Of a stretch of DNA of 32,148 nucleotides, positions 4,509-31,744 are shown in pieces (position 1 is the stretch's first letter; each line of letters begins with the position of its first letter). The notes under the pieces were generated by a model, which worked only from the letters and a program-made list of their open reading frames with translations, searched no databases and was not told where the DNA came from. A program made the position numbers and the translations under genes. The DNA comes from a virus, in the IMG/VR virus record IMGVR_UViG_3300030202_000520, positions 1-32,148 of that record; one strand, 5' to 3'.

Positions 4509-6129
4509 TATAGAAACTAATGGATTTAAAGATAGTGCTACAGAGATTCATTGCATTGTAGCTAAATGTCCTAAGACTAATACGATTAAACATTGGGTAC
4601 AAGAAGAATGTAAAGACTTTAAAGATTGGAGTAAGAACATTAATACATTTGTAATGCATAATGGTTTATCTTTTGATGCACCTTTATTAAATAAATTTAC
4701 TGGTTCGTCTATTCAACCTAATCATATAAGAGATACTTTAATAGAGTCTCAACTCTTTAATCCTATAAGAGAAGAAGGACATGGACTAGGTGCATGGGGA
4801 AAGAAATTAAAATTTGAAAAAGGAGATATGAATTCTTTTGATACTTATTCTCCTGATATGCTTACGTACTGCACACAGGATGTAAACTTAACTCATAAAG
4901 TAATGAATGAATTAGATAAAGAGAAAAGTAAATTCTCTAAAGAATCTATAGAACTAGAAAAGAAAGTTAGAGTTATTATAGATAAGCAGGAAGAAAATGG
5001 ATTTACTTTAGATTTAAGAAAAGCAATGACATTGAAAGCATCTTTAGAAGATGAAGCTAATAATTTATCTAACCAAGCTACAGAAATATTTCCACCAACA
5101 GAAGTACAACTTAAAACTAAAGTTAAATATATACCTTTTAATATAGGAAGTAGAAAACAAATAGCTGAACGTCTAATAAATAAAGGATGGAAACCTACAC
5201 TTAAAACTGATAAAGGTAATGTCATAGTAAATGAAGAAGTATTAAATAATATTGATATGAAAGAAGCTCAAATGTTTTCAAGATATTTACTACTACAAAA
5301 AAGAGTATCACAAATTAAATCTTGGATAGAATTATGTGATGATAATAGTAAAGTACATGGTAGAGTAATGACCTTAAAGACTGTTACAGGACGTATGGCA
5401 CATAATTCTCCTAATCTTGCTCAAGTGCCTGCTATCTATTCTCCTTATGGTAAAGAGTGTAGAGATTGTTGGACTGTCTCTGACCCTTCTAAATATACAT
5501 TAGTAGGTACTGATGCAAGTGGATTAGAATTAAGATGTTTAGCACATTATATGAATAGTGATGTCTTTACTAAAGAACTACTTACAGGTGATATACATAC
5601 AGCTAATATGAAAGCAGCAGGATTAACTAATAGAGACCAAGCTAAAACATTTATCTATGCTTTTCTTTATGGTGCAGGTGCAGCTAAAATAGGTAAAGTA
5701 GTTGGAGCAGGTCCTAAAGAAGGACAAAAATTAGTTGATAAATTTTTATCTAACTTACCAGAGCTTGCAGACTTACGTACTGAAGTACAAGAAGCATCAG
5801 TTCAAGGTGCTATTAAAGGATTAGATGGTAGAATATTTCAAATACGTAGTCCTCATAGTGCTTTAAATACTGTATTACAAGGAGCAGGTGCTATTGTATG
5901 TAAGCAATGGTTAGTATGTATGATGGATATGATTGATGTTTTTGGTCTTGATGCTCACCTTGTAGCATCTGTTCATGATGAATATCAATTTGAAGTAAAC
6001 CATAAAGATGTACAAAAGTTTGGAGAGATAACTAAAAAATCTATTAAGATAACAGAAGAAATATTAAAACTTAACTGTCCTTTAGATAGTGAATGGAAAG
6101 CAGGACTAACATGGGCATCAACACACTAA
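4492..6129 (+). CDS. T7-like family A DNA polymerase with 3'-5' exonuclease
   Basis: Replicative DNA polymerase of 545 residues, shorter than T7 gp5 (704). The exonuclease domain shows Exo I DIETNGF (D6, E8), Exo II around FVMHNGLSFDAP and Exo III YCTQDV, so proofreading should be intact. The polymerase domain shows TGRMAHNSPNLAQVP, motif A GTDASGLELR, motif B NRDQAKTFIYAFLYGAG and motif C ASVHDEYQF. Motif B is almost identical to T7, including Tyr at the position of E. coli Pol I Phe762. The start is ATG 4492, 8 bases after AGGAGG (4478-4483). ATG 4486 is too close and the upstream frame to 4447 lacks a site. The N-terminus overlaps the previous gene. The reduced length suggests a shortened thumb, so whether it recruits host thioredoxin as T7 does is uncertain. 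Confidence 0.96.
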   Translation: MAAIVDIETNGFKDSATEIHCIVAKCPKTNTIKHWVQEECKDFKDWSKNINTFVMHNGLSFDAPLLNKFTGSSIQPNHIRDTLIESQLFNPIREEGHGLGAWGKKLKFEKGDMNSFDTYSPDMLTYCTQDVNLTHKVMNELDKEKSKFSKESIELEKKVRVIIDKQEENGFTLDLRKAMTLKASLEDEANNLSNQATEIFPPTEVQLKTKVKYIPFNIGSRKQIAERLINKGWKPTLKTDKGNVIVNEEVLNNIDMKEAQMFSRYLLLQKRVSQIKSWIELCDDNSKVHGRVMTLKTVTGRMAHNSPNLAQVPAIYSPYGKECRDCWTVSDPSKYTLVGTDASGLELRCLAHYMNSDVFTKELLTGDIHTANMKAAGLTNRDQAKTFIYAFLYGAGAAKIGKVVGAGPKEGQKLVDKFLSNLPELADLRTEVQEASVQGAIKGLDGRIFQIRSPHSALNTVLQGAGAIVCKQWLVCMMDMIDVFGLDAHLVASVHDEYQFEVNHKDVQKFGEITKKSIKITEEILKLNCPLDSEWKAGLTWASTH

Positions 6130-11107: not shown

Positions 11108-11902
11108 ATGAGCACAAAGATAAGAAAAGAAATGACTAACACAGTATATATAGGCTATGATTCAAGAGAAGATACAGCATATGAAGTTTTAAAATTTTCT
11201 ATAGAAAGAATAGCTACTCAAGGAGTACGTGTAGTACCAATTAAAAAAGATATTGTTTCAAGAATGGGATTGTATACTAGAAAATCTAATTCTATTGGAG
11301 GACAATCTTATGATGAAATAGACGGAAGACCTTTTTCTACTGATTTTAGTTTTACTAGATTCCTAGTGCCACATTTAAATATGTATCAAGGTTTAGCTTT
11401 ATATATGGACTGTGATATGTATATACGAACAGATATAACAGAATTATTTCAAATGTGTCAAGACCATTATTATCCTTTATGGTGTGTTAAACATAAGTAT
11501 GAACCACCTAAAGGAGTTAAGATGGATGGTAAAGCACAAGAACCTTATACTCGAAAGAACTGGTCTAGTCTTATGATGTTTAATTGTGAGCATCATTATA
11601 ATGAAAAGTTAACTATAGATGCTATTAATACTCAAACAGGAAGATGGCTACATACATTTCAATGGTTACCAGATAAAGAAGCAGATATAGGAACTATACC
11701 TGAAGAATGGAATTGGTTAGATGGACATTCACCTGAAAAATTAGAAGCAAAAAATGTGCATTTTACTACAGGTGGACCTTGGTTTAAAAACTGGGGTGGG
11801 AAAAGAGTACAAGATAATAAGTATGCTGTTGAATGGTGCAATGATGCTAAATGGTTAAAGTATAATGGTATACTACCACAAGATAAGGATTATTTAATAT
11901 GA
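11108..11902 (+). CDS. GT8-like glycosyltransferase
   Basis: A 264-residue enzyme predicted to transfer a sugar from a nucleotide-sugar donor. The N-terminus has the GT-A start VYIGYDSREDTAYEVLKFSI, and the metal/nucleotide-binding DxD is seen as LYMDCDMYIRTDI (D101, D103). Further conserved-looking elements are FTRFLVPHL, the WSSLMMFNCEH loop and a C-terminal VHFTTGGPWF. Such genes occur in many marine phages, and the acceptor (host surface glycan, virion protein or modified DNA base) cannot be read from the sequence. ATG 11108 has a TAGGAG site, and an internal ATG at 11132 is an alternative. First gene of the cassette, overlapping the next by 4 bases (ATGA). Confidence 0.88.
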   Translation: MSTKIRKEMTNTVYIGYDSREDTAYEVLKFSIERIATQGVRVVPIKKDIVSRMGLYTRKSNSIGGQSYDEIDGRPFSTDFSFTRFLVPHLNMYQGLALYMDCDMYIRTDITELFQMCQDHYYPLWCVKHKYEPPKGVKMDGKAQEPYTRKNWSSLMMFNCEHHYNEKLTIDAINTQTGRWLHTFQWLPDKEADIGTIPEEWNWLDGHSPEKLEAKNVHFTTGGPWFKNWGGKRVQDNKYAVEWCNDAKWLKYNGILPQDKDYLI

Positions 11903-12126
11903 GAGAACTTACTAATACGTTATTTAAATCACTGAGATGTCATTACAAAGCTGAAGTAAATAAAGCATTGTATCAATTAGATTTAGCTTTTCAAAAACCT
12001 GTAGCAATAGGAGAACATCCAAAGATAGTTGAAGATTCTATTGTGCTAATTAAACAATTAGCAGAAGCAGAAGAAGCATTAGAAACATTAGAAAAGAATT
12101 TTGGTGTATACAATGAACAAGTATAA
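11899..12126 (+). CDS. conserved-looking helical protein, 75 aa
   Basis: A small helical protein (MRELTNTLFKSLRCHYKAEVN, AIGEHPKIVEDSIVLIKQL, AEEALETLEKNFG). The pattern of N-terminal 'LtnTLf.S', central 'vaIGEHP' and helical tail looks like a short protein family I have seen in marine phage and cyanophage genomes next to unrelated metabolic genes. I know of no biochemical role. ATG overlaps the glycosyltransferase stop (ATGA), and its end overlaps the large fusion gene by 14 bases, so all three are probably translated together. Confidence 0.7.
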   Translation: MRELTNTLFKSLRCHYKAEVNKALYQLDLAFQKPVAIGEHPKIVEDSIVLIKQLAEAEEALETLEKNFGVYNEQV

Positions 12127-14446
12127 TTTTATAACTTCTTTTAATGAAACAATATATAAAAATATTGGACATCATTTTATTAAATCTGTATCAAATTACT
12201 TTGAACCTAGTTTAAAATTAAAATGTTTTTATCATGATTGTAATATAGGTAGTTATAACTTAACTAAAGATAATGTTTTATATGAAAGTATAGATACTAT
12301 AAAAGAATATAAAACTTTTAAAGATATGCATTCTCTTCATGATGGTACAGAAGGTGGACAGATACCATATAATATTAAATTAGATGCTAAAAAAAATAGT
12401 CATAAAGTATTTGCTTTAACTAAATATGCAGAAGCTGTGTATAAAAAAGGATGGTTAATATGGATTGATGCAGACTCTTATGTTAATAAAAGATTAACTG
12501 AAGCTGACTTAGATAAGATGTTACCTCAAGATGTACATATAGCATATAGAGGATTACGTAATTATGAAGATGGTACTCAAGGTATTGATTCTTCTGTTAT
12601 GGCTTTTAATTTAAATCATCAAGCAACATATGATTTACTTATGGATTTAAAGAAAGCATATGTAACAGGAGAAGTATTTCAATATAGAGAATGGCATGAT
12701 GCTTTTATTACAGAAAGACTAATGAATATTTATTTAACACATGGTTTAAAAACTATTATGTTAGAAGGTATTACTGATACGATTCTACATTTTAATGGTA
12801 ATATTAATCCATCTACATTACCACTTAGAGATAATGAAGGTAAAAGATTATTTGATTTATCTACTGAAGAAACAAGTCCTGATATAATGCCTAATAGATA
12901 TAAACAATTAGCTGAAGTTATACGTCATTATAAACCTAAAACATTTTTAGAAACTGGTACATGGAATGGTGGTCGTGCTATTGAAATGGCTTTAACTGCT
13001 TTCGAATATACAGATAAAGTTACATATTATGGTTTTGATTTATTTGAAGAAGGTACTACAGAAACAGACTTAGAAGAGTTTAATGTTAAAGCACATAATA
13101 CTATGACTGCTGTAGAAAAAAGATTAAAAGAATTTTCTAAAAAAATGAAAGAAAAAAATAAAGACTTTCAATATGTATTAACTCAAGGCAATACAAGAGA
13201 AACATTATACGTAGATAAACTTTTTGATTTTTTATTAAATATTGATTTTGCTTTAGTTGGTGGTGGTAATAGCATTAAAACAGCACAAAGTGATTATACT
13301 GCAGTTAAACATATACCTATTGTAATGATGGACCACTACTTTTTAGCTGATAAAGATAAGAATGATGTAGAAGAAAAGTATAAAGGAACTAATGAAGTAT
13401 TTAAATCTCTTAATAAAGATATAAAAAAATATGTTCTTCCTTCAGGAGATAGAGTTAGAGGAGGAGGACACACACATTTAAACTTAATCTTACATGGTAA
13501 AAATTTAGATAAACCACCTAAAGAATTATTAAATGTACCTATTGTAGTTAATCCTAGAGACTGTGTTCCTAAAGATTATATTAGAAATAATATTAAAGCT
13601 AACATGAAATTAATAGATAATAATAAATGGTTATCTAAATATCCTATGAATAGAAAAAGTGCTATTGTAGTATCAGGTGGTCCTTATACAAATTATACAG
13701 AACTACAAGATTGTATTAAAAATAATCCTAATAAAAAAGTAATAGCAGTTAAACATTCTTATCCTAAATTATTAGAGCATGGTATTAAACCTTGGGCTTG
13801 TATAGTGTTAGACCCTAGACCTATTACTGGTACAAGTACACATGGTGTAATAAGAAAAGATTTATTTAAAACAATAGACCCAACAACTAAATTCTTTGTT
13901 GCATCTATGACTGACCCTTCTGTTACTAATCATTTAATTAAACAAAAAGCAGACATATGGGGATGGCATGCATTTACAGAATCATTACGTGACCCTGAAG
14001 AACAAAAGAAAGGTATAGTAAATAATCAAGTAACTCTTAATGAAGAACTAGGTATACCAAAAGGTTCTACATTAATTACAGGTGGTACGTGTGCAGCTAT
14101 GAGAGCTATAGGTATTATGCATACAATGGGATTTAGACAGTTTGATTTATTTGGTTATGATTCTTGTATGAATGAACCTACAGCAGAACAAAAGAAAGAA
14201 ACAACTGGTGCTGATGATGAAGAACCAAGACCTAAATATTTTAAGGTAGCTGTTAAAGATAAAAACTTTTGGACTACTGGTGAGCTTTTAGCTATGGCAC
14301 AAGATTGTGAAAAGATATTTAATGAAAATGTTTTAGAGATGTGTATAAACTTTCATGGTAAAGATACATTGATAAGTGAACTATGGAAACTATCTCAAGA
14401 ACATAAAGCAAAACAACCTTCATTTGAAAGGACATTCAATGAGTAG
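12113..14446 (+). CDS. three-domain glycosyltransferase / methyltransferase-like / Maf-DUF115-like fusion
   Basis: A 777-residue protein with three apparent modules. Residues 1-230: GT-A-like glycosyltransferase with LIWIDADSYVNK (D119-x-D121), GIDSSVMAFNL and a late H226FNGN. Residues about 260-460: Rossmann methyltransferase-like, with TFLETGTWNGGRA (278-289) and VTYYGFDLFEEG. A following FALVGGGNSIKTAQSDY aligns with the IDG-H segment of Methyltransf_24-like enzymes but lacks its Asp and His, so activity is doubtful. Residues about 512-745: Maf/DUF115-like (flagellin motility accessory factor / MptE superfamily), with SAIVVSGGPYTNYTELQDCI, KVIAVKHSYPKLLEHGIKP, ACIVLDPRP and LITGGTCAAMRAIGIMHTMG. 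ATG 12113 overlaps the previous gene; an upstream TTG at 12101 is less likely. A role in assembling or attaching a sugar on virion, host or DNA is inference. Confidence 0.78.
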   Translation: MNKYNFITSFNETIYKNIGHHFIKSVSNYFEPSLKLKCFYHDCNIGSYNLTKDNVLYESIDTIKEYKTFKDMHSLHDGTEGGQIPYNIKLDAKKNSHKVFALTKYAEAVYKKGWLIWIDADSYVNKRLTEADLDKMLPQDVHIAYRGLRNYEDGTQGIDSSVMAFNLNHQATYDLLMDLKKAYVTGEVFQYREWHDAFITERLMNIYLTHGLKTIMLEGITDTILHFNGNINPSTLPLRDNEGKRLFDLSTEETSPDIMPNRYKQLAEVIRHYKPKTFLETGTWNGGRAIEMALTAFEYTDKVTYYGFDLFEEGTTETDLEEFNVKAHNTMTAVEKRLKEFSKKMKEKNKDFQYVLTQGNTRETLYVDKLFDFLLNIDFALVGGGNSIKTAQSDYTAVKHIPIVMMDHYFLADKDKNDVEEKYKGTNEVFKSLNKDIKKYVLPSGDRVRGGGHTHLNLILHGKNLDKPPKELLNVPIVVNPRDCVPKDYIRNNIKANMKLIDNNKWLSKYPMNRKSAIVVSGGPYTNYTELQDCIKNNPNKKVIAVKHSYPKLLEHGIKPWACIVLDPRPITGTSTHGVIRKDLFKTIDPTTKFFVASMTDPSVTNHLIKQKADIWGWHAFTESLRDPEEQKKGIVNNQVTLNEELGIPKGSTLITGGTCAAMRAIGIMHTMGFRQFDLFGYDSCMNEPTAEQKKETTGADDEEPRPKYFKVAVKDKNFWTTGELLAMAQDCEKIFNENVLEMCINFHGKDTLISELWKLSQEHKAKQPSFERTFNE

Positions 14447-15134
14447 TGATTATATAAGCCCACGAGAACCCAAACCATCAGAAGAATATAAAGAACTTAT
14501 AGATGCATATAAATTAATGCATAAAGATGAAAGAGCTTTTATGGGTATTAGTTTAATTCCTTTAACATATCTTATTAAACAAATCTTTACTGATAATAAT
14601 ATTAAAAGTTTTTTAGATTATGGATGTGGTAAAGGTTTACTATATACTAAAGATTTTAAAAAAGCAGATAAAGGATTTAAATATCCTGATTTAAAACAAC
14701 CTATTCAAGATACATTAGGTATTAAAGAGTTTGCTTTATATGACCCTGCTTATCCAGAACATGATAAACTACCTACTAAACAATATGATGCAGTTATTTC
14801 TACAGATGTATTAGAACATGTACCTTCTCAAGATTTAGATTGGGTTATGGATAAGATATATAGTCATGCAACTAAGATAGTATTCTTAAATGTATGTGGA
14901 CAAGCTGCACTTAAAACTTTTCCAGAAGGTAAACATAGAGGTAGAAATGTACATGTATCATTATTTGATAATCAATGGTGGGTACGTCAATGTAATAAAA
15001 TAAGACAGAATCATAAACATTTAAAAATTTATTTAACGTGGCAGTCAACCACAGGTTTACAAGCTACATGTATTAAAGGAGAAAAAGATGGCACTAACAG
15101 CACTGATAGGTCCAGCAACAAAACTACTGGGTAA
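14439..15134 (+). CDS. SAM-dependent class I methyltransferase
   Basis: A 231-residue enzyme with motif I SFLDYGCGKG (58-66), an acidic residue after strand 2 (EFALYDPAYPE), and motif IV/post-I YDAVISTDVLEHVP, then KIVFLNVCG. These are hallmarks of Methyltransf_11/25-like small-molecule or sugar methyltransferases. No DNA-methyltransferase DPPY/NPPY motif is seen, so DNA base methylation is unlikely. ATG 14439 overlaps the end of the fusion gene (ATGAGTAG) and has an AAAGG site. The in-frame ATG at 14376 would overlap 71 bases and lacks a site. The last 18 residues overlap the holin-like gene. Last enzyme of the cassette. Confidence 0.85.
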   Translation: MSSDYISPREPKPSEEYKELIDAYKLMHKDERAFMGISLIPLTYLIKQIFTDNNIKSFLDYGCGKGLLYTKDFKKADKGFKYPDLKQPIQDTLGIKEFALYDPAYPEHDKLPTKQYDAVISTDVLEHVPSQDLDWVMDKIYSHATKIVFLNVCGQAALKTFPEGKHRGRNVHVSLFDNQWWVRQCNKIRQNHKHLKIYLTWQSTTGLQATCIKGEKDGTNSTDRSSNKTTG

Positions 15135-16829: not shown

Positions 16830-17234
16830 CTACTTATAAGACCAAACCCATGGTCTTGGTATACCTTCTACGCCACTATCGACTGTATCAAGGTGTATAA
16901 ACCTACTTTTATGGTCTCCATGCTGTTTAACACCTATACCTGTGAACCCAAGCTCTAATGCAAGGGTAAGAATAGCATGTGCTTTCTCACCAGAGCATAC
17001 AATATCTACAGCTTTACCTAAAATATGAGTTGATTTTTTTGAGCCGCCAATTCTTTCATTATATTCAGGTGTTCTATATCCAGAACTAATAATCATAGGT
17101 TGATTAAGCTTCTCTCTTAGAAGAATTAACTTAGCCATAAACTCTTCCATCATTTTAACTTCACCAGTACCTTTACATCTTAACTCATCTTCTGAAAAAT
17201 ACTTCCATCTTTTACTTTCCAACTTTACCACCAT
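16830..17234 (-). CDS. M15-family peptidase (endolysin or virion peptidoglycan hydrolase)
   Basis: A 134-residue zinc-dependent D-Ala-type peptidoglycan peptidase. Visible motifs: SGYRTPEYNERIGG (51-64), the first zinc motif STHILGKAVDI with H70 and D77, and the second with FIHLD (H114). The C-terminus RPWVWSY is also typical of M15A/M15C phage proteins. It cuts peptide cross-links in the cell wall, so it may be the lysin for cell exit or a virion enzyme for entry. The lack of a signal peptide and the holin-like gene on the other strand fit a holin-dependent lysin. The start overlaps the upstream gene by 23 bases. Confidence 0.9.
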   Translation of the reverse strand: MVVKLESKRWKYFSEDELRCKGTGEVKMMEEFMAKLILLREKLNQPMIISSGYRTPEYNERIGGSKKSTHILGKAVDIVCSGEKAHAILTLALELGFTGIGVKQHGDHKSRFIHLDTVDSGVEGIPRPWVWSYK

Positions 17235-28012: not shown

Positions 28013-28956
28013 TACTGCATACTACTATAAAAATTTTCTAAATCATCTAAAGTTCCTGAATATACTAAACCTCCTTGAGGTAAGTCAGGACCTTCTGAAT
28101 AATATACAGGTCTACCTGCATATACTCCTCTACCAGTTCTATCAAACTCTTCTTTATCTTCAAAATAACTAGGATATATGGCATTTATACCAATAGGTAA
28201 TCCTGAAAAATTAATTTCTTCTTGTGGTTCTTCTCTTTCTTGTCCTGTTAATCCTAAAGCATCTGTAGCATACTGAGTTAATGTAGCAGGAATACCTACA
28301 ACAGGTAAAGCTCCTAATCCTGATAAAGCTGCTCCTACATAGTCTCCTTCTTGTGCTCTTTGATATGCATCTCCTGCTGCTAATACTCCACCTGCTATAG
28401 GTAAAGTTCTTGATAAAGTTTTAAATACTTTATGTCCAATAGAAGGAGATTCAACTATATTTCCTATTCCTTCTTGATAAACTTTTGAAGCTGATTCAGG
28501 GTCTAAAACTATTTCTCTAGTGCCTAAAGCTCCTTTTTTTAAGATATCTTCTACTTGACTTGTAGGAACTTGAGCTTCTAATATATCTCCTGTTTGTTTT
28601 CCAAATCCTGTTCCTCTTAAATTTTTTGAATCAATAGCATAAGTTCTTGCAGTTTCTATATCAGGTGTTGCAAATACTTTATTACCTGTAAAACCTGTAT
28701 CCATAATTTGTTGTTTAGCACCAGGAGGAACTCCTGTATAAATACTTGTTAAACCTTCAGGACTAGATTGTAAATTTGGTAATACTCCTAAATATCTTGA
28801 AGCTATATTAGTAGCTTGACTAGCAGTAGGTAATGATATATCTGCACCTGCACCTGAAGCTCCCATCTGTTGATTATACTTTTGTAATACTGTATTTTTT
28901 AAATTAGTTAAATAAGCACCAGGGTCATAACCAGCTGTATTATACATCATTGCCAT
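28012..28956 (-). CDS. late protein with possible ADP-ribosyltransferase-like domain
   Basis: A 314-residue protein in the virion operon. Residues 70-160 follow an ART-like fold pattern: TSIYTGVPPGAKQQIMDTGF (Y73), KVFATPDIETARTYAID (F95-A-T-P), GDILEAQVP (123-131), and GTREIVLDPES with E148 where 'E.evllp' third-motif residues stand in ART proteins. I cannot see a clear R of an R-S-E type or an ExE pair. After it comes a Gly/Ala-rich segment that could cross or line a membrane (PIAGGVLAAGDAYQ, VGAALSGLGALPVVGIPA), then a Pro/Asp C-terminus. A virion-delivered ADP-ribosyltransferase would modify a host target during entry, but structural use of the fold is equally possible. It is coupled by TAATG at both ends. 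Confidence 0.6.
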   Translation of the reverse strand: MAMMYNTAGYDPGAYLTNLKNTVLQKYNQQMGASGAGADISLPTASQATNIASRYLGVLPNLQSSPEGLTSIYTGVPPGAKQQIMDTGFTGNKVFATPDIETARTYAIDSKNLRGTGFGKQTGDILEAQVPTSQVEDILKKGALGTREIVLDPESASKVYQEGIGNIVESPSIGHKVFKTLSRTLPIAGGVLAAGDAYQRAQEGDYVGAALSGLGALPVVGIPATLTQYATDALGLTGQEREEPQEEINFSGLPIGINAIYPSYFEDKEEFDRTGRGVYAGRPVYYSEGPDLPQGGLVYSGTLDDLENFYSSMQ

Positions 28957-30818
28957 TATCTTCTACCATCTGGTTGTATAGCTAAACGTATTGAACCCCA
29001 TCTCCAACTTGTATTAGCTGCATTACAGGATACTCTTATTCTACCTTGTCTACCTCTAGCTCTCATATCTATTTTAGTTGTTGCGTTAGTAATAACATGT
29101 GGTGGATTAGGTTTCTCTCTAGCTGTACCACTTTCAGGAAAGTCTTTAGTCTTAATAGAAAAACTTAATGAACCATCACTTATATCAAAATCAGGAATAA
29201 TTCTACTTAGGAACATTATATCATTACCTGACGCTATATCAAAATCTGCTGATTCAATAAAAGAAGGTTGAGATACACCATCTGCTGTATATACACCATC
29301 AGGTTCATTGTTATATAAGTTATTAGCAGTACCTACTGTACCTGTTGTTATAGTATTACTAAATGTATTTTTATCTGCAAAGGTTGTAAAGATACTAGAA
29401 CCTATTGTCCAATATCCTTCTGTAGGAGAATAGATAACATAGCTATCACATTCATTAGAGTTAGTAGAAGGATATAACCATATAACTTCTTTAAACTCAG
29501 AATTAATACCACAGAATATTTTATCTTTCTGGTCTATATTTAATCTATCAAATACAAATCTTCTTACAGTACAATCTAAGTTTTTAACTTGTCCATCAAA
29601 CATATAGAAGTTATCATGTCCCATCCATATAGATGCACCATCATAATCTATTGCTGCATGTGGTGCTATTAATCCACAATTAGTACCTAACTGATTAAAG
29701 TTAAATATAAAAGGTGGACCAACAAAAGACATAGCCCATAAAGAATTATCTGTCCATATGTTAACAGCATTACGTGACCTCTTAGCTCCAACTATTTCTG
29801 TACCATCTGTAAGAATTACTTCACCTGAAGTAGAACTAATAGAAGGAACAAAGTTTGTAAAGTCTTCTTGATTAGACCAACGTACAGTTAAAGGGTCATA
29901 TGTTCCTGTAGGTGATGCTGTTGTTCCAAATTGATTTGTTCCTAATGTAATAAGATGTCTATCATTAGGAGAAACAATAATTGAATTTACAGTTGTTGGT
30001 GTAGAGTTTGTACTACCTGAAACTTTAACAGCTCTTAAAGGACTTGTTGATGCATCTGAATCAAAATAATATATAGTGCCACCTCTTCTATTAGCAACTA
30101 CATCTTCACCCCAGTTATCTAAACTCCATTGTGTTATTTGACTAAAGAAGTCACTAGCACCTGCTGAAGTAGGACTATTCCATGCTCTTCCTCCTACTGT
30201 ACTTACACCTGCATTATAAGAACCTGCTCCATAACCTAATCCTGTTGCTGCATTATCTACACCATTAGAAATTAAATAATGTATAGTACCACCACCTGAA
30301 GAAGATTGAGCAACACTAGATGTAGTTGCAACATCAATAGCAAAAGTATTAGCATTAATAACACTTACAGGATATGTGTCTGTACCTAATAATATATTAC
30401 CACCAATGGTAGTAGAGCTTGTAAAGAATACAAAGTCACCTGTTGTTCTACCATGAGCTGTTGCTGATACTGTTACTGTATTAACACTAAGAGCACAAGT
30501 AAATGCACTAGCTAATGTTACACTAGCAGATACAGGAGTAACATCAAATATCTGGTCACCATTATGTTGATACAACATTTGAGATGTACCAAACATAGCT
30601 CTTTTAAATTGGTCATTATCAGACCATGTAATTAAATCTCTACCTGCACCATTAAAGGTAACATCTACTTTTTTTGCATAGCCACCTATATTCTCTGGTT
30701 TACCTGCTCTAAAACGTACTTTATCAGCGTCATACCATGCACCTGTTTCAGCATATTGTGTTGACTCTCTTTGGATTCCAGCTTTGAAATCCATTTTAGT
30801 TAAAGTAGATTTAGCCAT
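28956..30818 (-). CDS. tail hub/nozzle-like beta-rich structural protein, 620 aa
   Basis: A 620-residue beta-rich late protein. The N-terminus has DFKAGIQRESTQYAETGAWY and DADKVRFRAGKPENIGGYAK, followed by GTSQMLYQHNGDQIFDVTP. A later region shows repeated blade-like strands (VNIWTDNSLWAMSFVGPP, GLIAPHAAIDYDGASIWMGH, FYMFDGQVKNL, SYVIYSPTEGYWTIGSS). This layout matches tail nozzle or packaged-DNA-stabilisation proteins (P22 gp10-like, T7 gp12-like), which close the tail tube and carry a beta-propeller. The family is assigned by pattern only. Position next to the tail-fibre-like gene fits the tail tip. No strong ribosome site is visible. Confidence 0.7.
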   Translation of the reverse strand: MAKSTLTKMDFKAGIQRESTQYAETGAWYDADKVRFRAGKPENIGGYAKKVDVTFNGAGRDLITWSDNDQFKRAMFGTSQMLYQHNGDQIFDVTPVSASVTLASAFTCALSVNTVTVSATAHGRTTGDFVFFTSSTTIGGNILLGTDTYPVSVINANTFAIDVATTSSVAQSSSGGGTIHYLISNGVDNAATGLGYGAGSYNAGVSTVGGRAWNSPTSAGASDFFSQITQWSLDNWGEDVVANRRGGTIYYFDSDASTSPLRAVKVSGSTNSTPTTVNSIIVSPNDRHLITLGTNQFGTTASPTGTYDPLTVRWSNQEDFTNFVPSISSTSGEVILTDGTEIVGAKRSRNAVNIWTDNSLWAMSFVGPPFIFNFNQLGTNCGLIAPHAAIDYDGASIWMGHDNFYMFDGQVKNLDCTVRRFVFDRLNIDQKDKIFCGINSEFKEVIWLYPSTNSNECDSYVIYSPTEGYWTIGSSIFTTFADKNTFSNTITTGTVGTANNLYNNEPDGVYTADGVSQPSFIESADFDIASGNDIMFLSRIIPDFDISDGSLSFSIKTKDFPESGTAREKPNPPHVITNATTKIDMRARGRQGRIRVSCNAANTSWRWGSIRLAIQPDGRR

Positions 30819-30823
30819 AAATT

Positions 30824-31744
30824 TTAATCAAAGTTTTTTAATAATGCTGCATCTATTGTTGATGCACTTCTTGTACTATAAACTAATATATCTACATCTG
30901 CTGCACCTGTACTTAATGTAGGAGCTGCTCCAGATACAAATTGATAAACACTATTATAAGATAATGTTCTACTTCCTGTACCATCTTGTATAACATATAT
31001 TTGTCCTGTCTGTCCTGCAACTGCATTAGTAGGTGCTGCTAATGTTCTATTACCACCTACAGTAACTAAGAAATTATTACCTAATGCAAAGTTTACTGCT
31101 ATACTTGCAGCATCTGTTAATGTTGTTATTGGATTATAAGCTCTAGCAGATGTTCCTACTTTTAATGAACCTGCTTCATATGTTATATCTCCTCTAACAG
31201 TTACTGCAGTTGTTACTGATGTTCTTACATATCTTAAATCTGCTACAGATACTTTAGCTACATTTTCTCCACCTGTGCCTACATCTGCAGAAGCTGCTGT
31301 ACCTAATCCTAATCCTTTTGCATTAGTTGGATATACACTTGTACCATCACATACAACTAAACCTACTGCACCAAAAGGTATATTATATCCATCACCACTA
31401 GCAGTTTTAATTTTAACTATATCACTTGCAGTTGCATTAGCAGATACAATATTATTAATAACATAACTTTTAGATTGAGCAGGTATTATCATTGTTATAG
31501 TTGTATTAGTTCCACCTACTGAACCTTTAACTTCTAAAAAAGCAGAACGTGGTACATCACCTGCACCATCTATTGCTGATAAAGTTACTGTAGCATTAGC
31601 TCCTATTTCTACTGTTGTATAAGCTGCGATAGCATCATCTACTAAACTTATCATACCATCATTTAATACAGTACCCCAAGTGTTTGGATTATCACCATCA
31701 CCCTGCTTTACTAGTCTTAGTCTACTTGTATATGTTGATGACAT
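30824..31744 (-). CDS. tail fibre-like / host-contact protein, 306 aa
   Basis: A Thr/Ala/Gly/Ser-rich, beta-dominated protein. The N-terminus SSTYTSRLRLVKQGDGDNP and NTWGTVLNDGMISLVDDAIA is a recurrent marine-phage fibre-type start. Repetitive strand segments follow (NATVTLSAIDGAGDVPRSA, AQSKSYVINNIVSANATAS), and AKVSVADLRYVRTSVTTAVT marks the middle. The C-terminal part has GQTGQIYVIQDGTGSRTLSY, a pattern common in fibre tips. It has a good AGGAG site. Receptor binding is inferred from composition and position, and no catalytic depolymerase motif was seen. Confidence 0.72.
   Translation of the reverse strand: MSSTYTSRLRLVKQGDGDNPNTWGTVLNDGMISLVDDAIAAYTTVEIGANATVTLSAIDGAGDVPRSAFLEVKGSVGGTNTTITMIIPAQSKSYVINNIVSANATASDIVKIKTASGDGYNIPFGAVGLVVCDGTSVYPTNAKGLGLGTAASADVGTGGENVAKVSVADLRYVRTSVTTAVTVRGDITYEAGSLKVGTSARAYNPITTLTDAASIAVNFALGNNFLVTVGGNRTLAAPTNAVAGQTGQIYVIQDGTGSRTLSYNSVYQFVSGAAPTLSTGAADVDILVYSTRSASTIDAALLKNFD

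Follow-up and report, generated by a model that had tools for sequence, protein, structure and literature searches.

A three-domain fusion in a conserved viral operon

The window, by which we mean the whole 32-kb stretch of DNA analysed (32,148 nucleotides), is a virus record with a GC content of 29-36%, depending on the stretch. Replication genes for primase/helicase, DNA polymerase A, endonuclease I, a Cas4-type exonuclease and ribonucleotide reductase occupy its + strand and the virion genes lie on the - strand, with a peptidase M15 (endolysin-like) gene at 16830-17234, near the beginning of the reverse-strand block. The best cultured matches to the DNA polymerase are from the Pelagibacter phages HTVC104P, HTVC103P and HTVC115P (43-45% identity). 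HTVC104P and HTVC115P have the same gene layout as the window, and the 50 kb viewed of each contains no annotated glycosyltransferase. The virus is probably an uncultured, pelagiphage-like one from the ocean, the host being assigned from DNA polymerase similarity and base composition only. The features considered here are as follows:

11108..11902, + strand: 264-aa GT8-like glycosyltransferase that opens the cassette (Glyco_transf_8, E 0.005, under the cut-off; phrog_28018, E 1.5e-51)
11899..12126, + strand: small ORF, 75 aa, overlapping both neighbours and present in part of the relatives (phrog_1811, unknown, E 3.9e-11)
12113..14446, + strand: three-domain fusion protein, 777 aa (stop-free translation, Pfam, AlphaFold, Foldseek)
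12113..12850, + strand: D1, GT-A-fold glycosyltransferase domain, residues 1-246 (Foldseek, alpha-1,3-GalT and LARGE1)
12467..12475, + strand: DAD metal/nucleotide-sugar motif of D1, residues 119-121
12788..12790, + strand: His226 of HxxG, probable third metal ligand of D1
12875..13522, + strand: D2, Methyltransf_24/TylF-like Rossmann domain, residues 255-470, probable pseudo-methyltransferase (Foldseek, COMT, MycF and TrmR; standalone relatives match Methyltransf_24)
12950..12973, + strand: ETGTWNGG, SAM-binding motif I of D2, residues 280-287
13259..13270, + strand: GGGN in place of catalytic DGGH in D2, residues 383-386
13535..14407, + strand: D3, DUF115/MptE-like (Maf-type) domain, residues 475-765 (PF01973 E 1.2e-12; D3-only model)
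13664..13684, + strand: IVVSGGP nucleotide-binding loop of D3, residues 518-524
13808..13822, + strand: LDPRP of D3, residues 566-570 (L566-R569 in 63/63 copies)
14439..15134, + strand: Methyltransf_23 methyltransferase, 231 aa, its ATG overlapping the fusion stop (E 3.4e-7)

The earlier note on this DNA had read the product of 12113..14446 as a GT-A glycosyltransferase, a methyltransferase-like domain and a DUF115/Maf-like domain in one chain, and sequence profile, AlphaFold model and Foldseek now concur; all five motifs that it quoted (DAD, ETGTWNGG, GGGN, IVVSGGP and LDPRP) occupy the residues listed above. MptE-like (DUF115) was the sole Pfam domain above cut-off (residues 492-687; 48.4 bits against a gathering cut-off of 34.6), and neither outcome that would have refuted the note, a lack of any DUF115 match in residues 512-745 or a single continuous fold, was seen. 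An AlphaFold model built from a 37-sequence alignment had a mean pLDDT of 86.3 and a pTM of 0.55, indicating that the domains are well folded and that their mutual arrangement is uncertain. When the whole model was compared with the PDB using Foldseek, the top match was Maf (5mu5), followed by GT-A enzymes (alpha-1,3-galactosyltransferase and LARGE1) and then class I O-methyltransferases (COMT, MycF and TrmR). A PDB sequence search with the whole protein gave no match, and PHROGs gave no significant one. From the Pfam, AlphaFold and Foldseek results we conclude that the three domains are established.

The fusion is not a single oddity. A single-sequence scan returned 44 relatives and an alignment-based scan confirmed at least 541 in IMG/VR, nearly all of those fetched being full-length; since 541 is a lower bound, the true number is higher, and within a large group of viruses the three-domain architecture is the norm. 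Loci (numbered here with the prefix L) were ranked by similarity and the best 80 kept per scan, some being fetched in both, and the frequencies given below apply to the fetched loci. Conservation was scored over 63 non-redundant fusion copies less than 95% identical. Where the flanks were long enough, the GT8 gene adjoins the fusion in 61/61 non-redundant loci and a methyltransferase gene flanks it in 57/58 loci; L041 yielded no downstream methyltransferase gene. In the window the GT8 gene, small ORF, fusion and Methyltransf_23 gene overlap successively by a few bases. The fusion stands in the middle of a GT8 - fusion - methyltransferase operon that is conserved across this large group of viruses. 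There the cassette has ribonucleotide reductase on one side and holin/small terminase on the other, and is on the strand of the replication genes, opposite to that of the structural operon. At L092:2610-4925 the fusion is interrupted between D2 and D3, giving separate ORFs of 434 and 322 aa, through either a frameshift or a real fission. Look-alike genes resembling capsule-type transferases stand next to the cassettes at L126:7610-8524 and L127:4792-5613 (SGGSVDSVLAGVP, NSNSAVEAAIAGIP), the former having no Pfam match.

Only two genome contigs carry the fusion. Both (L125 and L126) are phage-like contigs binned in MAGs, and the idea that these are bacterial genes was therefore set aside. Among 142 alphaproteobacterial genomes, DUF115 matches occurred in 16 (11 over the cut-off), and the D1-D2-D3 fusion was found only on a virus contig. 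In INPHARED the sole match to the whole fusion protein was to D1, in MW202713. BFVD contains a 714-aa protein, A0A6J7X5Q0, that aligns over nearly the whole model (26% identity, E 5.7e-57, 794 aligned columns), together with several further uncultured Caudovirales proteins named MptE-like that share D3. These proteins are known by database names only, and the open literature searched contained no paper on, or functional account of, DUF115 in phages. The fusion is thus new to the searched literature, not to databases: UniProt already lists phage proteins under the name 'MptE-like'.

Motif loss in D1 and D2

D1 of the window has a GT-A fold with both the DxD motif and the C-terminal metal histidine. 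D121 and H226 are each retained in the same 55 of the 63 copies and are absent together in exactly the same eight. Seven of the eight form one strongly supported clade and the eighth, L125, sits elsewhere in the tree on a long branch, which makes at least two losses of the D1 motifs likely. Judged from these residues, D1 is not safely catalytic in every family member. The D1 profile also matches a standalone gene (E 5e-22) in the SAR11 myophage Mosig EXVC030M. In this phage the D1 and GT8 homologues (the latter matching Glyco_transf_8 at 2.7e-7) are neighbouring but unfused genes beside two FkbM methyltransferases and a sulfotransferase, and there is no DUF115 among the Mosig genes scanned. 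In MW202713 the D1 homologue is likewise unfused, with a glycosyltransferase and a methyltransferase nearby.

D2 shares its class I Rossmann fold and SAM motif I with O-methyltransferases of the TylF/MycE and Methyltransf_24 types, but the catalytic Asp and His of these enzymes are gone in all of the fused copies that we examined. The sugar methyltransferases MycE and ThnM1 use a catalytic metal Asp275, a base His278 and additionally Asp304 (PMC9275233); we equated D2 residues with these by motif and approximate spacing, not by structure. Position 383, corresponding to the metal Asp, is Gly in 63/63 copies and position 386, corresponding to the base His, is Asn or Asp in all 63, whereas standalone D2 relatives have DGGH at the same place, just as the earlier note had suspected when it proposed that the domain might bind but not catalyse. 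Separate D2 relatives in L039, L041 and L175 keep both DGGH and DD. The intact copies at L039:2736-3419 and L041:3386-4054 are located between the Cas4-type exonuclease and endonuclease I genes. The in-chain D2 of the L039/L041 clade has lost its motifs and is further degenerate, despite the intact copy elsewhere in the genome, and in the fusion relative of L126 D2 is missing entirely.

Median dN/dS was 0.125 for D1, 0.138 for D2 and 0.132 for D3, and four pairs of copies with a dead D1 gave 0.07-0.09 at a dS near 1, close to saturation; values of 0.07-0.14 indicate that the decayed domains are still under purifying selection, and they probably serve binding or structure. It is conceivable that D2 works as an active methyltransferase through other catalytic residues within an otherwise unchanged scheme. 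Its dN/dS of 0.14 would fit, as would the SAM motif residues E280 and G282 and the Asp at 407, all kept in 63/63, and residue 408, which is His, Asn or Lys, is in 25 of the 63 copies an Asn that would suit a COMT-like metal ligand. Against this stand the universal replacement of the first metal Asp and the base His, the existence of intact relatives as separate genes in three loci, the pairing in L039 and L041 of a degenerate in-chain D2 with an intact separate copy, and the absence of D2 altogether from L126. We consider an active D2 improbable; retention of the SAM motif with loss of both catalytic residues suggests that catalysis has likely been lost and that the role of D2 is probably non-catalytic.

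D3 resembles the core of Maf

D3 is the most conserved part of the fusion (mean conservation 0.74 over the 63 copies, compared with 0.68 for D2 and 0.61 for D1). The DUF115 motifs, namely a GxGP-type loop, LD(P) after a GIKP strand and an (L)xGxD strand, are all present and align with those of a bacterial Maf-type protein. Nearly all tested motif positions are unchanged in 62-63 of the 63 copies: G523, D567 and G681 are invariant, P524 is kept in 62/63, and D683 is Asp or Glu. Searches of cultured phages with D2 alone or D3 alone gave no credible match. A D3-only AlphaFold model had a pLDDT of 87.6 and a pTM of 0.85, and at E<=1e-3 its only Foldseek matches were Maf 5mu5 and the archaeal 6-hydroxymethylpterin diphosphokinase MptE (MjHPPK, 8sd5), the latter nearly as good. 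The DUF115/Maf assignment of the earlier note is borne out by these folds and by the PF01973 match.

The core fold and motifs of D3 are those of Maf (PseD/motility accessory factor, Magnetospirillum 5mu5), which attaches nonulosonates to Ser/Thr of flagellin and also has a degenerate, weakly methyltransferase-like Rossmann domain before the DUF115 core (PMC11339370). The fusion differs from Maf in having an extra GT-A domain and no flagellin context (no flagellin gene was noted in the window), and the Maf C-terminal helical domain was not seen in it. No Pfam match to the Maf N-terminal domain was obtained in the fusion at E<=1. D2 was tried as a homologue of that domain and rejected, since hhalign showed no relation when D2 was compared with the N-terminal region of a single bacterial Maf-type sequence; as a test this is weak.

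DUF115 genes among the head genes of a second virus group

Standalone D3-like DUF115 relatives were reached via L149, an alphaproteobacterial assembly contig that is also an IMG/VR virus. They belong to a second virus group, with a phrog_9953 major head protein and an SU10-type adaptor, in which DUF115 lies between these two genes in most contigs covering the interval. DUF115 stands alone in L149, L156, L166 and L167, is in tandem in L162 and L178, and is fused behind two GT-like domains (L162) or one (L164, L173 and L174), or in front of a methyltransferase (L178). The GT partners in L162, L164, L173 and L174 were recognised from motifs read by eye, Pfam naming the DUF115 part only; that of L174 was also a tblastn match from a Mosig glycosyltransferase. 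In L166:5037-5813 and L167:4968-5744 the GxGPS loop of DUF115 reads SGWSM; these copies are possibly inactive, yet they are kept between the head and adaptor genes.

The DUF115 of L164 matches FlagModPseD (2e-7) and that of L162 weakly matches the Kdo transferase WaaZ. In L156 a PseF/NeuA-like CMP-nonulosonate synthetase (cytidylyltransferase; 5339-5974) lies between the major head protein and DUF115, directly upstream of the latter (TIGR03584, PseF, E 1.7e-20, below cut-off; NeuA structures, E 9e-21). Among the head genes of L170 are DUF115, a homologue of GT8 and genes resembling sugar C-methyltransferases. L175 has GT8, Methyltransf_23, DUF115 and an intact D2-type methyltransferase (D2 profile E 1.6e-21) as separate genes around a tail adaptor, a set that nearly amounts to the window's cassette in unfused form. 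The product of L175:71-1555 has a TPR domain and a glycosyltransferase-like tail, recalling the TPR-GT layout of the flagellin glycosyltransferase FlmG.

Proposed function of the fusion

These findings support the sugar-related role that had been suggested for the fusion. We propose that it is the enzyme at the heart of a phage cassette for glycan assembly, in which D3 would act as a Maf-like DUF115 transferase, likely moving a nucleotide-activated sugar to the acceptor. D1, in most members, and the GT8 enzyme would extend the glycan with further sugar, D2 would serve as a scaffold binding SAM or the acceptor glycan, probably no longer methylating, and the separate downstream methyltransferase would cap the product, a reaction order that we infer. 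The acceptors would most likely be virion proteins, and their modification would take place in the cytoplasm, ahead of assembly or in the course of it.

That D3 is a glycosyltransferase seems to us a likely assignment. PF01973 carries the name of MptE, and with MjHPPK as second-best fold match D3 could on its fold be a pyrophosphokinase that yields an activated pterin or other small molecule, with no sugar transfer. We regard this as very improbable: in each of the two virus groups the partners and neighbours of D3 are glycosyltransferases and methyltransferases of the sugar type, genes for folate or pterin were not noted nearby, and a PseF/NeuA gene is paired with DUF115 in L156. The same gene points only indirectly to nonulosonate use. 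No relative of it was found in the window or the window's relatives, so the donor is a guess by analogy; most plausibly it would be a host-derived CMP-activated nonulosonate or Kdo, and the chances that it is a CMP-activated acidic sugar at all appear roughly equal either way.

For the acceptor, the earlier note had left a choice between virion, host surface and DNA. The position of DUF115 in the head operon of the second group tilts this choice towards the virion, and we slightly favour a virion protein. Mycobacteriophage capsid and tail tube proteins are glycosylated by phage-encoded glycosyltransferases (PMC12363180). Given this precedent and that of Maf, the CMP-sugar synthetase and the position of the genes, the economical reading is that virion proteins are glycosylated in the cytoplasm, and a D3-type domain among the shell genes of related phages probably decorates virus particles with sugar. 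It counts against this reading that the window's own cassette is on the replication-gene strand, outside the structural operon, that DUF115 also includes pterin pyrophosphokinases, and that neither terminal domain of Maf was detected. The same enzymes might instead act on a glycan of the host surface, either LPS core or capsule, perhaps as a means of preventing superinfection or tuning adsorption. The cassette is encoded with replication-type genes ahead of the holin, LPS is also built by GT8-type and Kdo/sialyl-type transferases (the WaaZ match in L162 would fit), and the Mosig cassette, with its FkbM methyltransferases, sulfotransferase and several glycosyltransferases, is similar to an LPS-type set; but we noted neither a membrane-bound flippase nor a gene of undecaprenyl type in the window, DUF115 relatives lie among head genes in the second group, and we judge a surface acceptor unlikely. 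Phage glycosyltransferases can also modify hydroxymethylated bases, as in the T-even phages. A DNA acceptor is scarcely credible here, the window proteins scanned having given no match to a base-hydroxymethylating or hypermodification enzyme.

The overall reading, a phage glycan-assembly enzyme with a Maf-like D3 core (probably of nonulosonate/Kdo type) that acts most likely on virion proteins, we consider evenly poised. Two structural-strand products of the window, at 28956-30818 (620 aa) and 30824-31744 (306 aa), are the richest in Ser+Thr (about 21%, clearly above most window proteins) and are possible acceptors, although Ser/Thr richness is not evidence. More tentatively, and with some doubt, tailed phages may have a DUF115-based nonulosonate transferase lineage of their own that modifies head or virion proteins, and in pelagiphage-like viruses its fusion to another glycosyltransferase and to a pseudo-methyltransferase may have produced a single, multi-step enzyme for glycan assembly.

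No PHROG covers the fusion gene and none of 50,697 phage records matches it over its full length, although it lies in a near-invariant operon of a large, uncultured group of viruses that, judged by DNA polymerase, are nearest to SAR11 phages among the cultured ones. D2, its active site universally lost and its SAM motif retained, offers a clean case for the study of a viral pseudoenzyme. Should DUF115 proteins sugar-coat virions, an unknown gene that recurs in the head operon of the second virus group would be accounted for, Maf-type chemistry would extend to virus particles, and there would be a testable reason why marine phages keep several glycosyltransferases.
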